A stretch of DNA of 64,000 nt from Dongia deserti (GTDB taxonomy: Bacteria; Pseudomonadota; Alphaproteobacteria; Dongiales; Dongiaceae): assembly GCF_003574735.1 (NCBI RefSeq), contig NZ_QORW01000013.1, forward strand, positions 62,001-126,000, given 5' to 3'. A model generated the notes under the pieces. It ran no database searches and was not told the origin of the DNA. It saw only the letters and a list, made by a program, of their open reading frames with translations. Shown here in pieces: positions 29,435-40,628 of this stretch; position 1 is the first letter of the stretch, and each line of letters starts with the position of its first letter. Both the position numbers and the translations under genes were made by a program.

Positions 29435-29664
29435 CTGCTCATCCTGACGATCACCGCCTTAATCGTCGGCAATTGGCTCCGCAAAGTGAGCGTGGAGCAG
29501 GCGCGCGCCAACCTCTATCTCAACCCACCTCTCCCGCCGGACGAAGGAAGTGGCCTCGGAACATGGATCAATGTCGGAGGCGGCATCTGTCTGGCCGTTC
29601 CTCTGAATTGGCCGAAGCCGGACTTCCTTGAGCGGCTGAAGAATGGTCGGAGCGGCGGGATTTG
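29435..29664 (+). other. Coding-like stretch without a start codon beside tRNA-Pro
   Basis: This frame encodes a plausible small membrane protein: a helix LLILTITALIVGNWLRKVSV, then YLNPPLPPDEGSGLGTWINV and GGGICLAVPLNWPKPDFLER. Codon third positions are mostly G or C, as in real genes here. No ATG, GTG or TTG lies between the previous in-frame stop (29336) and the helix; only CTG 29435 is available. The stop falls inside the tRNA gene on the other strand. It is either a gene with a rare start or a remnant. Confidence 0.3.
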
Positions 29665-34391: not shown

Positions 34392-34521
34392 GATAGCTGA
34401 ATCCTGAAACTTGACAGGCAAGCCCTCGAGTGCGATGGTCCGCGCGCGAAGGACGCCTCGCGCTGGGGCATAGCGCCGGTAGCGCGCCAACACAAGGGTA
34501 CTCACAGAGGGCATGATCCGG

Positions 34522-34986
34522 ATGATCGGTTGCTATCGCCGTACGCTGCTGGCTGCTGTCGGGCTGGCTGTGGCCTTGACGGTCGCCGCCTGCTCCGCCC
34601 GCATCGACCAGCGCGGCAACAAGCCGGACGAAGAGCAGGTGGTGCTCATCAATCCCGGCGTCGATGACAAGAACCGCGTGGCGGAGCTGATCGGCACACC
34701 CTCGGCGATTTCCACCTTCGACGACCGCACTTGGTACTACATCTCTAAACGCACGGAGACGACCGCCTTCTTCGAGCCCGAAGTGGTCGACCAGGAAGTG
34801 CTGGCGATCTCGTTCGACGAAAACGACGTCGTTGAGAACATGCGGATCTACGGCCAGGAAGACGGCCGCACCATCGCCTATGTCGAGCGCACCACCCCAA
34901 CCGAAGGCAACGAGCTGACGCTTATCCAGCAGTTCCTAGGCAACCTCGGTCGCTTCAACCCGCAAGGCAATCAGGAACAGCCGTAG
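34522..34986 (+). CDS. bamE: BamE-like outer-membrane assembly lipoprotein
   Basis: The 154-residue lipoprotein has a signal peptide ending VALTVAAC (lipid-modified Cys) and a SmpA/OmlA domain: KNRVAELIGTPSAISTFDDR then TWYYISKRTETTAFF and VLAISFDENDVVENM. BamE supports the Bam complex that inserts beta-barrels in the outer membrane. The ATG at 34522 is preferred to 34513. Divergence from the bc1 chaperone gene is a known arrangement in this class. Confidence 0.92.
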   Translation: MIGCYRRTLLAAVGLAVALTVAACSARIDQRGNKPDEEQVVLINPGVDDKNRVAELIGTPSAISTFDDRTWYYISKRTETTAFFEPEVVDQEVLAISFDENDVVENMRIYGQEDGRTIAYVERTTPTEGNELTLIQQFLGNLGRFNPQGNQEQP

Positions 34987-35217
34987 CTATTGCGAGTCTT
35001 CGGCTGTCGATCCCAAGTCGAGGCGGAATCCCGCGACAGAAGCGTCGACGGGACCAACGGGACTGCCGACCTCCAGGCGGTCGCTCTGCTCTGGACTTGA
35101 ATCGATCAGCAGCGTCGTGAGCAGTGACCGGCCGTTCCCCTCGACGAGACGCGGCAGCAGAATGGTCGCGCCGAAGGCGATGGCCACGATGATGGCAAGA
35201 TAGAGATTCTTCTCCAT
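34987..35217 (-). CDS. Small single-pass membrane protein, hypothetical
   Basis: This 76-residue protein starts MEKNLYLAIIVAIAFGATIL, one membrane helix with a short cytoplasmic or uncleaved start, followed by an exported acidic tail (SSPEQSDRLEVGSPVGPVDA). GGAG stands ten bases upstream. It is the second gene after the Ser/Asp-rich protein and separated from it by a strong hairpin, so it may be part of the same system. It ends directly against the bamE stop. Confidence 0.65.
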   Translation of the reverse strand: MEKNLYLAIIVAIAFGATILLPRLVEGNGRSLLTTLLIDSSPEQSDRLEVGSPVGPVDASVAGFRLDLGSTAEDSQ

Positions 35218-35239
35218 TGCTGTTGTGCTCCATGAGGCT

Positions 35240-35274
35240 GGGCAGCCCGCGGCGCGGAATGCCGCGGGCTGCCC
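35240..35274 (-). other. Strong intercistronic hairpin without T-tract
   Basis: Perfect 14-bp arms GGGCAGCCCGCGGC and GCCGCGGGCTGCCC surround a 7-base loop. It lies 12 bases after the stop of the Ser/Asp-rich gene and 23 bases before the next start on the minus strand. No U-run follows, so it may stabilise or partly attenuate the transcript rather than end it. Confidence 0.7.
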
Positions 35275-35286
35275 ATGCCGTTGTCG

Positions 35287-36639
35287 TCACTCGACTTCCG
35301 CGCTGGTTTCTCCAAAGGTCTCCGCCGACATGGTGCCGTCCGGCAGGATCTGCGCAGCGGCGTCCGCATCCGCGGAGGCTTCCGCGTCACCCATGGTCTG
35401 GGTGCTGGTATTCGTTTTCGCGGTCGTCTTCTGTGTGCCCGGGGTGTTGAGCGCCTTGGCCTGAGCCTTCGCCATGGCCTTTGCGAGGTCGCCGTCATCG
35501 CTATGCGCATGGCTCAACGAATGAGTCATGCTCTTGACCATGTGCGGCGTGACGATGGACTTGGTCCAGGACCTGGACTTGGCCATTGCCGCGTCCTCGT
35601 CATCCTCGTCAACGATATCGCCGTCGTCCGCCACGTCCGTGGGCTCGTCGACGTCCTCTTCGTCCTCAGACACGCTGGCGTCGACGTTGACGTCGGTCTC
35701 AGTGTCGGTTTCGATCGTGCCACTGTCGACGTTCGCGTCAGCATTGGCATCTGCATTCGCGTCCGCGAAATCGTCGCCGACTTCGACGTTGGCTGAGACA
35801 CCGGCTGAGGATTCCGGATTGACACCGGCTGCACCGGCTGCCGCATTCGCTGCGGCCTCGGCCGAGTGCTCGTCGCTGGTCAAGCCGGCATTTGCTTCAG
35901 CGGACGTGTCCGTCGATCCCTCGCCATCGACCTCGGCAACCGAGGCCGCACCGGCATCAACCGACTGGACGTCGCCGTCGATCTCGGTGCTCACGCCTGC
36001 TGCCGATCCGACTGCCGCGGAACCCGTACTATCGAGGTCCGCGGAAGCGTCGGCGTTTGCACTGCCCGAGACGTCATCTCCAGTGAGACCGGCGTTGGAC
36101 GTGCTTGACGCGCTGCCGCTCGGATCGCCATCGATCGAAACCGCGGCGCCACCGTTCGACTCCACGCTTGCAGAGTCCTCATCCGCTAATAGTCCGGACG
36201 AGGCCGTGGAGGCCGCGTCAACGGACCCGTCGCCTTCGATTGACCCGTCCGCGGACGAGTCTGTGCTGCCGGTCATGCCGGCACCCGAGACGTTTGTGCT
36301 CGCATCGGTGTCGACGGTCGCATCATCGCCGCTCGCGCTACCGTCGGACGTCGCCTCGGCGCCAGCACTCGTTGAGTCACCGGACACGCTGGCTTCCGAA
36401 CCTGCGGAAGAAGACGCACTGGCCGAGTCACCGCCGGATGCTTCAGTACCGCTCGAAGCGGAGGCCGAGACGCCATCCGGGGCGCCCGCATCAGCGACCT
36501 GCATCACACCAGCATCGCTGTTCTGGTCATCGAGGCCCTGCTCAAAGGAGCCGGCATAGGCTGTCGAAAAGCCAAGCCCCAATGTCAGAGCACCTGCGGC
36601 TCCCAGCAATTTCCACCGGGTGGATTCTGTCCGCATCAT
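35287..36639 (-). CDS. Secreted Ser/Asp/Ala-rich low-complexity acidic protein
   Basis: This 450-residue protein has a cleavable signal peptide (MMRTESTRWKLLGAAGALTL then GLGFSTAYA, cut after Ala29). Almost all the rest is Ser, Asp, Ala, Gly, Glu and Thr with no Cys and hardly any aromatic residues; short irregular repeats such as SASSG, ADANADAN and DEDDEDAA recur. A single basic island near residue 360 (AKSRSWTKSIVTPHMVKSM) interrupts the acid. It should be disordered and exported. The ATG pair at 36639/36636 has GGAG in front. No family is recognised; SD-rich surface or biofilm proteins are the nearest analogy. Confidence 0.75.
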   Translation of the reverse strand: MMRTESTRWKLLGAAGALTLGLGFSTAYAGSFEQGLDDQNSDAGVMQVADAGAPDGVSASASSGTEASGGDSASASSSAGSEASVSGDSTSAGAEATSDGSASGDDATVDTDASTNVSGAGMTGSTDSSADGSIEGDGSVDAASTASSGLLADEDSASVESNGGAAVSIDGDPSGSASSTSNAGLTGDDVSGSANADASADLDSTGSAAVGSAAGVSTEIDGDVQSVDAGAASVAEVDGEGSTDTSAEANAGLTSDEHSAEAAANAAAGAAGVNPESSAGVSANVEVGDDFADANADANADANVDSGTIETDTETDVNVDASVSEDEEDVDEPTDVADDGDIVDEDDEDAAMAKSRSWTKSIVTPHMVKSMTHSLSHAHSDDGDLAKAMAKAQAKALNTPGTQKTTAKTNTSTQTMGDAEASADADAAAQILPDGTMSAETFGETSAEVE

Positions 36640-36857
36640 TCTGCTCCATTTCTGATGGCCAGCTCCCAAGAAGGAAACCCACCGCCATCGCTATCGTTGC
36701 GAAATCAAGGAACCTGAACTCCAGGTGAACAGAAGCGACCACTGAGAGATCAATCGTGGAGTCAGCGGGCAGAATGGGTCATGCCTTGCGAGGTGGCGCG
36801 CAACGCGGCGTCCGCTCTCAGGTTTTCTATTCATCCAAGGTTGGGGAGGAGAACGAA

Positions 36858-37934
36858 ATGTGGAAGCACACACATCAAGCCAAGTTGCCGGGAGCGTCGG
36901 CTCTCGTTCTCCTCATCGGTTTCGTCTTGCCGTTCGACGCAGACGCAGTTGGGTTCCATGATTTCCATCCAGACGATCTGCCCTTGATGATGATCCCTGT
37001 TGATGATGTAGGCGGCGCCGATTCAGGGAGTGAGAATGGTGGCGAAGCCGGCTCTAAGGATGCTGGCTCTGAAAGCGACTCAACGACGGCTGACGATCCC
37101 GCAGACTCCGATGGCATGAGTTCGAGTGTGGAAGGCTCTGGCGAGACAAGCTCTACGGACAATTCCGGATTGGATACAGATTCAGCAGTAGATGCCAGTC
37201 CGGATGTTCAAGGTGACACTTCAACGTCCACGGACGTATCCACCGGTGATGCAGGCGGCAGTGCTGGGAGCAGCGAGTTCGATCAAGTCGACCGCGCCAC
37301 CGCAGACTCGGAACTATCCACCTCCACTGCTGAAGGCACTTCCGTGGACGCGACAAGCGTGGACGGCTCACCTGCGGGCGCGCCGCCCTTGGGAGCAGGT
37401 GCACCAGCTGCAAGCAGCACCAGTGTAGAAATCGGCGAATCACTTTCCAGTCCGGCGCAGAGCACCTCAGGCCGAAAGGGCGGCATCGTTGTCATCGAGC
37501 CCACCATCACCTGCCTTGTAGGCGATCCGAACTGCCTGAGCGCCGACCGTTCGCCCGCTCTCGCTCCATCGCAACTGCAGGATTCGAACCGCGGTGTCAC
37601 GGGTGTTTGGCCTCCACCGGCGCCTGCCGTTACGAGACCTTCCGCCAAGCAAAGTGTTCGAGCCTTGGGACTGTCGTTGGTCGACCCGATCAAGGCGCGT
37701 GACGGGCTCGTGGTTCAAGGAATCATTGTCAACGGCAGTGGGCGATCGCAGATCGTCCCGCCTGTGCAGATCAGCGTGGAGAATAAGGCAGGCCAGATCC
37801 TGCAGCGATGGAACATGAGACCGCCTATAAGCCAGCTACCCGCCGGCCAGCACAAGGCGTTCAAAGTGGTGCTGCAGTCCCTGCCGCCCACCGTCTCGCG
37901 CGTGAACGCGGCATTTCTAGCAGCGTCACGATAG
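36858..37934 (+). CDS. Secreted Ser/Asp-rich protein with C-terminal DUF3426/FxLYD-like domain
   Basis: This 358-residue protein is divergent from the other Ser/Asp-rich gene. It has a signal peptide (MWKHTHQAKLPGASALVLLI then GFVLPFDADA), a low-complexity Ser/Asp/Gly/Thr region (about 50-210), a short region with two Cys (TITCLVGDPNCLS) and a C-terminal beta-rich domain (about 270-358) with VQGIIVNGSGRSQIVPPVQI, RWNMRPPISQLPAGQHKAFK. The last part resembles DUF3426/FxLYD domains. The start at 36858 has GGGGAGGAG eight bases before it. Function unknown. Confidence 0.75.
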   Translation: MWKHTHQAKLPGASALVLLIGFVLPFDADAVGFHDFHPDDLPLMMIPVDDVGGADSGSENGGEAGSKDAGSESDSTTADDPADSDGMSSSVEGSGETSSTDNSGLDTDSAVDASPDVQGDTSTSTDVSTGDAGGSAGSSEFDQVDRATADSELSTSTAEGTSVDATSVDGSPAGAPPLGAGAPAASSTSVEIGESLSSPAQSTSGRKGGIVVIEPTITCLVGDPNCLSADRSPALAPSQLQDSNRGVTGVWPPPAPAVTRPSAKQSVRALGLSLVDPIKARDGLVVQGIIVNGSGRSQIVPPVQISVENKAGQILQRWNMRPPISQLPAGQHKAFKVVLQSLPPTVSRVNAAFLAASR

Positions 37935-37957
37935 AGGGAGATGGTCTGAGGCGCTGC

Positions 37958-38368
37958 TCAATCGTCAGTGCTTTGCGAGAGCAGCATTCTGATCCTGAGC
38001 GCCAGATCGCAGTGATCGTAGGGCTTCGGTACGATCTGATGCCGATCGGACACCCCTGACCACGCTCGCGCGGCAAGCCCCGAAGTAAGGATCACTTTTA
38101 TTCCTGGATGCTCGCGAGAAATCCACTGCGCAAGTGTGACGCCGTCAATCGACCCCGGCATCTGCACGTCCGAGAAGATGACATCTATGTCCGTGCCGCT
38201 CTTGAGCACTCGAATTGCCTCCAGCGCATTCGCAGCTTCAATAACGTGCAAGCCGCAGGACCGCAGATAATCGCTGACGGACGACCGAAGGAAGACTTCG
38301 TCCTCGACGATGAGCACCGTCTCGGACGCTCTTCGAACCGAGGATATTGCAGGCTCCACTACGTTCAT
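37958..38368 (-). CDS. Single-domain response regulator
   Basis: This 136-residue receiver domain has the acid pocket VEDE (Glu22, Asp23), the phospho-acceptor Asp67 (VIFSDVQMPG), the Thr/Ser switch in VILTSG and the Lys in VPKPYD. No output domain follows. It starts at 38368 behind GGAGG. It belongs to the type common in alphaproteobacteria next to hybrid kinases, but no kinase is adjacent. It is convergent with the Ser/Asp-rich gene. Confidence 0.92.
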   Translation of the reverse strand: MNVVEPAISSVRRASETVLIVEDEVFLRSSVSDYLRSCGLHVIEAANALEAIRVLKSGTDIDVIFSDVQMPGSIDGVTLAQWISREHPGIKVILTSGLAARAWSGVSDRHQIVPKPYDHCDLALRIRMLLSQSTDD

Positions 38369-38446
38369 GGCGGCCCTCCGCGGTTGTAACACGGAAAAGG
38401 CGCGTTCGTTCCTGCGCGCTCTACGTCATTTACGGCGCACCACCAG

Positions 38447-38486
38447 CAAAGAAAACGGCCGATGATCCGCTCTGGACCATCGGCCG
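38447..38486 (-). terminator. Rho-independent terminator of hppA
   Basis: On the minus strand CGGCCGATG and CATCGGCCG (9 bp, perfect) enclose a 13-base loop and are followed by TTTTCTTTG. It lies about 50 bases after the hppA stop. Confidence 0.9.
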
Positions 38487-38537
38487 CTTGTTGCTTCGAG
38501 CGAACGGCGGCGTTCGTGCCGTTCGCACCCGGTCGCG

Positions 38538-40628
38538 TTACGCCGCCAATACCGCCAGCAGCAGCAGCGCGACGATGTTCGTGATCTTGATCATCGGGTT
38601 CACGGCCGGACCGGCGGTGTCCTTGTAGGGATCACCGACCGTGTCGCCGGTCACCGCGGCCTTGTGGGCGTCGGAGCCCTTGCCGCCGTGATGGCCCTCT
38701 TCGATCAGCTTCTTGGCGTTGTCCCAGGCGCCACCGCCGGAGGTCATCTGGATCGCGACGAACAAGCCGGTCACGATCGTGCCGAGCAGCATGGCGCCCA
38801 GCGCCACGAAAGCCTGAGCCTGGCCAGCAACCGCCCAGATCACGACATAGAGCACGATCGGCGCGAACACCGGCAGCATTGAGGGCAGGATCATCTCCTT
38901 GATCGCCGCCTCGGTCAGGAGGCTCACCGCCTTGCCGTATTCCGGCTTGGCAGTGCCTTCCATGATGCCCTTGATCTCGCGGAACTGACGGCGGACTTCA
39001 ACCACGACCGAGCCAGCCGCACGGCCGACCGCCATCATGCCCATCGAGCCGAACAGGAACGGCAACGCGCCGCCCAGGAACAGGCCGATGACCACGAAGG
39101 GATCATTGAGCTGGAAGCTGATCTGCCCGGTGAGGTTCGGGAAGTAGTGCTTCAGATCCTCGGTGTAGGCCGCGAACAGCACCAGGGCGGCGAGGCCGGC
39201 GGAGCCGATCGCATAGCCCTTGGTCACTGCCTTGGTGGTGTTGCCGACCGCGTCGAGCGCGTCGGTCACCCTGCGCACATCCTTCGGCAGCTCCGACATT
39301 TCGGCGATTCCGCCGGCATTGTCGGTGACCGGACCGTAGGCATCGAGCGCCACGATGATGCCGGCGAGCGACAGCATGGTGGTCGCCGCGATCGCGATGC
39401 CATAGAGGCCGGCCAAGGCATAGGCGGCAACAATGGCGGCGCTGATCACGATGGCGGGCAGCGCGCAGGACTCCATCGAGACCGCAAGGCCTTGGATGAT
39501 GTTGGTCGCATGGCCCGTGGTCGAAGCCTTGGCGACGCTGATCACGGGACGGAAGGTGGTCGCCGTGTAATATTCGGTGATCCACACCAGCAGGCCGGTG
39601 ACGGCAAGGCCGATCAGCGAGCAGACGAAGATCCCCATGCCGGTGACGGTGGCGCCCGTGCTGAGCTGGATCGGCACATCGAACCCGAAGCTCAGGTGGA
39701 CCATCACCGCGATCAGGATCGCCGAAATGACGCCCGTCGCGATCAGGCCCTTGTAGAGCGCGCCCATGATGTTCTGGCTCGCGCCTAGCTTGATGAAGAA
39801 GGTGCCGATGATCGAGCCGATGATGCTGACGGCGCATACCAGCAGCGGGAATAGCATCATCTTTTCCTGCTCCAGGCCGGTGAAGAAGATCTGCCCCAGC
39901 AGCATCGTCGCAACGACGGTCACGGCGAAGGTCTCGAACAGGTCGGCTGCCATGCCGGCGCAATCGCCAACATTATCGCCCACGTTGTCCGCGATCACGG
40001 CCGGGTTGCGGGGATCATCCTCCGGGATGCCCGCTTCGATCTTGCCCACCAGGTCCGCGCCAACGTCGGCACCCTTGGTGAAGATGCCGCCGCCGAGACG
40101 CGCGAAGATGGAGATCAGCGAGGCACCAAAGCTCAAGCCCACCAGGGCCTCCAGCATGGGCCGCATTTCGATGCCCATGTTGCGCAGGAAAAGGTAATAG
40201 CCAGCGACGCCCAGCAGGCCGAGGCCCACCACCAGCATGCCGGTGATGGCACCCGCCTTCGCGGCGATGGCGAGGGCCGGCGCCAGCCCCTGGCGTGCGG
40301 CTTCGGCCGTACGCACGTTGGACCGCACCGAGACATTCATGCCGATATAGCCGGCTGCGCCCGACAGGATCGCGCCGATCACGAAACCGATCGCCGACAA
40401 GCCGCTCAGGGCCACCGCCAGCACGATGGCGACGACGATGCCGACGACGCCGATGTAGGTGTATTGCTTGTTGAGATAGGCCTTGGCGCCCTCCTGCACC
40501 GCGGCGGCAATCTCCTGCATCCGTGGAGTGCCCGCTGAAGCCGCCAGGACCGACTTGGTCGCCAGCGCCCCGTAAACCAAGGCTGCGGCGCCGCATACGA
40601 TCACGCCCCAGTAGTAGAAAGTTTCCAT
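38538..40628 (-). CDS. hppA: Membrane proton-translocating pyrophosphatase, K+-independent type
   Basis: This 696-residue integral membrane protein couples pyrophosphate hydrolysis to proton pumping. The catalytic block [20 protein letters not shown], then [19 protein letters not shown], is complete, and Lys in [10 protein letters not shown] marks the K+-independent subfamily (Ala there in K+-dependent forms). The start at 40628 gives [13 protein letters not shown]; the frame extends further upstream without similarity. It has its own terminator and lies after an MFS gene in the same direction. Confidence 0.97.

Follow-up and report, generated by a model that had tools for sequence, protein, structure and literature searches.

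A divergent pair of exported acidic low-complexity genes in Dongia deserti and its kinship to a four-gene operon

The extra block between bamE and hppA

The window analysed here is a stretch of 64,000 nucleotides of Dongia deserti, in which four genes, designated A to D, occupy an extra block between bamE and hppA (Table 1). Genes B and C had been described in the original prediction as divergently transcribed secreted proteins very rich in Ser, Asp, Ala and Gly, a description borne out by the frames and by signal peptides recognised by eye in both (AYA/G in B). The start of B was set at the second ATG (36636) because the homologues of B, designated B1, begin with MRKETTRW and have the same bases just upstream. 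Protein B contains 19% Ala, 16% Ser, 13% Asp and 11% Gly (59% together), has a pI of 4.05 with 87 acidic and 12 basic residues, and carries the predicted basic island as a single basic stretch near its C-terminus. The N-terminal part of C is acidic and rich in Ser, Ala, Gly and Asp, and the low-complexity parts of the two proteins showed no relation beyond composition (z 1.2). No sigma-70-type promoter was found in the gap of 221 bp between the two genes. Antisense to B lies an open frame of 343 aa, and B1 has comparably long open frames on its opposite strand. The frame antisense to B was rejected as a coding frame, since the pattern of substitutions points to the strand of B, and is regarded as a by-product of composition.

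A DUF3426/FxLYD-like domain had been predicted at the end of C. Both models did match (E-values 0.0045 and 0.0055), with scores below their thresholds: C reached 17.5 bits and its homologue C1 15.9 bits against DUF3426 (PF11906, Pfam gathering cut-off 27.7 bits), and C reached 16.6 bits against FxLYD (NF038353, NCBIfam cut-off 23 bits). B had no match in Pfam or NCBIfam. The statement that the pair belongs to no described family still holds. Gene A likewise matched no Pfam or NCBIfam family; its hydrophobic segment agrees with the predicted single-pass protein, while its topology is ambiguous by charge and the exported tail is only a possibility. Gene D was correctly read as a lone receiver protein.

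The congeners G002 and G003 lack the extra block, with a bamE-hppA interval of approximately 475 bp in G002 and 92 bp in G003, and of the 15 relatives with an identified bamE, 11 have the two genes facing each other less than 0.5 kb apart. The GC3 of genes A to D (0.62-0.74) is lower than that of bamE (0.82) and hppA (0.87), which would fit an origin from outside without proving it. With regard to signs of a mobile element at the block, no convincing flanking repeats were detected and the only tRNA lies at 29644.

Table 1. Features of the window and of related loci
Feature	Position	Strand	Description
bamE	34513-34986		Flanking gene
Extra block A-B-C-D	34962-38527	both	About 3.57 kb between bamE and hppA (hppA ends at 38538)
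A	34987-35217	-	76 aa, one hydrophobic segment
Hairpin in B-A gap	35239-35275	-	Perfect 15-bp stem, no U-run; folding z -6.7
B	35287-36636	-	449 aa; exported, acidic, of low complexity; P4-type C-terminal domain after a B1-type repeat part
B C-terminal domain	35287-35592	-	About 100 aa with basic island; homologous to C-terminal half of P4 of the C20 operon
Antisense open frame	35528-36559	+	343 aa, rejected as coding
Divergent B/C gap	36637-36857	.	221 bp with both leaders; last bases before B resemble B1 leader
C	36858-37934	+	Exported, 358 aa; low-complexity N part and C1-type beta-sandwich domain
C C-terminal domain	37650-37934	+	DUF3426/FxLYD-like; six-stranded sandwich in model of G003 homologue
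D	37958-38368	-	Lone response-regulator receiver domain (Pfam Response_reg, E 2.3e-16)
B1			530/556 aa; repeat protein; export signal by eye
C1			341/359 aa; lipobox, N domain, DUF3426-like domain; export signal by eye
P3			About 145 aa; two Cys; export signal by eye
P4			About 225 aa; export signal by eye
C1-P3 hairpin region	L025:6157-6297	-	
C1-P3 hairpin region	L026:7296-7540	-	
C1-P3 hairpin region	L069:9010-9150	+	
Three small genes, G003	L026:11160-12791		Predicted lipoprotein/secreted
Scarred operon site, G002	L069:8560-9680		
C1 homologue, G108	L074:1-1556		

Kinship to the operon B1-C1-P3-P4

Within a comparison set of 17 genomes of the order, all of one family, B had homologues at only two other places, one on contig C20 of the D. 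deserti genome and one on contig C22 of G003, and full-strength matches of the end of C were found at the same two places. Both loci are tandem four-gene operons with the conserved order B1-C1-P3-P4, flanked upstream by genes for an AraC-type regulator and a GFA-type enzyme and downstream by genes for an ABC transporter and a MOSC-type protein, the names of these flanking genes being read from their sequence. No secretion machinery genes were found beside the window locus or the C20 operon. Between the GFA-type gene and B1, G003 has three small genes for predicted lipoproteins or secreted proteins of unknown family, which the C20 locus lacks. The dN/dS values between the C20 and G003 orthologues (B1 0.24, C1 0.28, P3 0.31 and P4 0.53) indicate purifying selection, and thus that these low-complexity frames are real genes.

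The similarity of B to B1 lies far beyond that expected from composition (z 27, 200 shuffles), with residues 31-350 matching the two B1 orthologues at z 27 and 23. The last 100 residues do not match the end of B1 itself (z 1.9 and 0.8); their match is to P4, a protein of its own in the operon (z 15 and 18), at a score reached by none of 500 shuffles. Judged by these matches, B is a fusion of B1 and P4. Between B and B1, variation is highest at the third codon position (0.62, compared with 0.41 and 0.34 at the others), and dN/dS is 0.39. As B is far less identical to the two B1 orthologues (44 and 39%) than these are to each other (75%), either the duplication is older than the split of G000 and G003, or B is evolving fast, or B came from outside.

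The end of C matches C1 with an E-value of 4.9e-22, the match being confined to the C-terminal domain of C1. The low-complexity N-terminal part of C is unrelated to C1, and C lacks both the N domain and the lipobox found in the C1 proteins of C20, G003 and the genome G108 of another family. Kinship to the operon was taken as a B1-type repeat part beside a C1-type domain, which is the arrangement of the window pair, and on sequence grounds B-C is a shortened, rearranged and partly fused version of B1-C1-P3-P4 from which P3 is missing. The pairing of B and C is, by the same comparison, a real unit, because homologues of the two genes are paired again elsewhere in the genome and in the congener G003. 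Most other DUF3426-like matches were rejected, being ordinary zinc-ribbon proteins, which in the relatives adjoin ftsEX-type genes.

The operon is absent from G002, the nearest congener by HppA (95.6% compared with 80.8% for G003). There B1, C1, P3 and P4 are all gone and the site is scarred, with three noncoding remnants still in order at the syntenic place: a block preceding B1, the hairpin from the C1-P3 gap and the terminator that follows P4. Given these remnants, it is most likely that the operon was present in the common ancestor and was then lost in G002, and its loss from so close a relative shows it to be dispensable. Further afield, a sample of 385 alphaproteobacterial genomes yielded no P4 domain beyond the genus, and the C1 N domain turned up in a single genome, G108, where both C1 domains and the lipobox are present; the system thus appears rare and patchy. 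An open frame rich in Ala, Gly and Ser that runs off the contig end precedes the G108 gene by 34 bp; with so high a G+C content, such a frame by itself is weak evidence. The remaining 18 genomes of the order of G108 gave ordinary matches to the C-terminal domain only. No relatives of C1 were found in viral contigs, plasmids or PDB sequences, and a literature search for such proteins returned nothing on point.

Repeats, folds and hairpins

B1 contains about nine copies of a 34-residue unit around the motif [LIV]xG[DE]GS, mostly spaced 33-35 residues apart. In a leave-one-out analysis, which leans in favour of the repeats as the copies were chosen by motif, five of the nine copies scored above every one of 500 shuffles, two were equalled by one and three shuffles, and two were unremarkable. 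Analysis of periodicity without any motif gave signals at lags 17 and 33-35. A further signal at lag 2 suggests strands in what may be a solenoid-like arrangement. Together, the repeats and the signals at lags 2, 17 and 33-35 point to an ordered repeat and not filler. Only about three degenerate copies are present in B. A repeat common to B1, P3 and P4 was also considered and was dropped, as the profile was not significant for P3 and marginal for P4, and direct comparison gave z 4.0 for B1-P3 and z 1.4 for B1-P4.

AlphaFold gave no fold for B with one relative (pLDDT 34). For the G003 C1, only the C-terminal domain was modelled with confidence, as a six-stranded sandwich (pLDDT approximately 76). 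Its nearest PDB matches by Foldseek, none with a strong E-value, were DUF1425 (3o0l, TM 0.55 normalised by target length) and Fn3-like domains. Long Foldseek matches of this protein to GH2 enzymes were discarded as products of the low-confidence model.

At each of the three loci, the B-type gene is directly followed by a strong hairpin without a U-run (z -3.3 at C20 and -2.3 in G003; see Table 1 for the window), with position and stem kept and sequences differing. In other operons, hairpins of this kind shield the upstream message and lead to an abundant product. The C1-P3 gap of the operon contains two adjacent hairpins (z -4.7), which are kept in G003 with compensating changes and also in G002 despite the gene loss. 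A search of Rfam gave no match. The conserved loop GAGGCUCCCUC of the C1-P3 hairpins can pair with the ribosome-binding regions of several operon genes better than shuffles do; in exploratory, uncorrected counts, shuffles were as good in 3 of 200 cases for its own B1, 2 of 200 for its own C1, 0 of 200 for the G003 C1 and 1 of 200 for the G003 P3. Its pairing with the ribosome-binding regions of window genes B, C and A was no better than that of shuffles. This element is a candidate regulatory RNA.

Possible roles of the B-C pair and its operon

It is tentatively proposed, at somewhat less than even confidence, that the B-C pair and the operon represent a lineage-specific system of exported, highly acidic, repeat-bearing structural or matrix proteins with a beta-sandwich partner. 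Such an exported structural role, raised in the original prediction, is the most reasonable reading of the B1 repeats, the export signals and the sandwich partner. In this scheme, B or B1 would supply the bulk polymer of the cell surface or of a matrix and would be made in excess over its partners, as the hairpin just behind the gene would protect that part of the message. The beta-sandwich of C or C1 would bind or position the polymer, which C1, as a predicted lipoprotein, may anchor, with C being soluble. The operon keeps apart what is fused within B, which suggests that B1 and P4 act together, and the P4 domain could serve the same polymer as a terminal or linking module. The sequences themselves show the export signals, the homology, the fusion, the operon, the hairpins and the extra block at this site, while the extracellular location, polymer or matrix role, differential expression and anchoring are what we infer. 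The conserved order and flanks in C20 and G003, the export signals, purifying selection, the B fusion, the B1 repeats, the hairpins at three loci and the G108 homologue all speak for the structural reading; the loss of the operon in G002, the degenerate repeats of B, the missing AlphaFold fold for it and the lack of neighbouring secretion genes speak against it. A bolder version, for which we consider the chances slim, would see here a new class of bacterial surface or matrix material. Its core would be an acidic secreted polymer built from 34-residue repeats and accompanied by a lipoprotein anchor and two small exported proteins, with hairpins between the genes setting the proportions of the components. 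The C1-P3 hairpin, whose conserved loop can pair with ribosome-binding sites in the operon and which outlasted the genes in G002, would then resemble a regulatory RNA.

The very acidic B (pI 4.05) without a confident fold would also suit soluble, intrinsically disordered proteins, either periplasmic or secreted, that retain cations or water as a charge or hydration buffer, with C and C1 as partners and no polymer. Some D-x-D stretches of B do exceed shuffles (14 of 300), but B1 itself shows no such enrichment, no known calcium motif is present, and the regular repeats of B1 and the conserved sandwich partner are not accounted for; this explanation is considered unlikely, though it deserves some weight. 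The calcium binding suggested in the original prediction gains no support from motifs, as neither RTX nor dockerin/EF motifs were found and the weak D-x-D enrichment is limited to B. It is about as improbable as the new material class that the window copy is a functionless duplicate, decaying or newly arrived, and that the C20 operon alone matters. The copy is rearranged and absent from congeners, has lost P3 and the C1 N domain with its lipobox, carries degenerate repeats and has a GC3 of 0.62-0.74 compared with 0.82-0.87 in bamE and hppA; against this, the frames of B (449 codons) and C (358 codons) are intact with signal peptides present, and B compared with B1 shows a third-position excess and a dN/dS of 0.39. 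The least probable explanation, and a very doubtful one, is that A-B-C-D forms one functional module in which D or A controls or tethers the pair. All four genes do adjoin within the same extra block, A following B on the same strand after 69 bp, but A has no homologue in any of the 17 genomes, neither A nor D adjoins the homologous operon, and the genome yields 92 receiver matches, of which D is one. A and D therefore look incidental and are probably bystanders; of the four-gene set originally predicted, only B and C co-occur in relatives.

If the structural reading is true, this would be an undescribed exported-protein system of one small alphaproteobacterial lineage and at least one distant genome. 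The natural gene fusion would tell which parts cooperate, the full, empty and scarred sites provide a record of gain and loss, and seemingly featureless low-complexity frames can hide real repeats that are traceable by comparison.

Among known proteins, those with DUF3426 or FxLYD domains resemble C and C1 in their weakly matching terminal domain, a beta-sandwich in the model. C and C1 differ in scoring below both cut-offs and in starting with a signal peptide or lipobox and no zinc ribbon, whereas ordinary DUF3426 members in the relatives have an N-terminal zinc ribbon and a transmembrane segment. RTX-type proteins are acidic, Gly/Asp-rich, repetitive and exported by a C-terminal type I secretion signal. 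The window and operon proteins share this acidic, Gly/Asp-rich and repetitive character and are predicted to be exported, but GGxGxDxUx nonapeptides occur in none of B, B1 and C, and signal peptides were seen by eye at the N-terminus rather than a type I signal at the C-terminus. The curli csg, fap and hfa operons encode small exported repeat proteins, a lipoprotein and minor subunits, with a bulk subunit rich in small residues. B1-C1-P3-P4 resembles such amyloid or surface-fibre operons in its small, predicted exported repeat proteins with a lipoprotein and putative minor subunits, and in a bulk subunit rich in small residues. It differs from curli in that no CsgG-type pore was seen beside it, and from curli and Fap in that the Pfam and NCBIfam profiles recognised neither type of repeat in B or B1, the repeat unit of B1 being 34 residues around GDGS.
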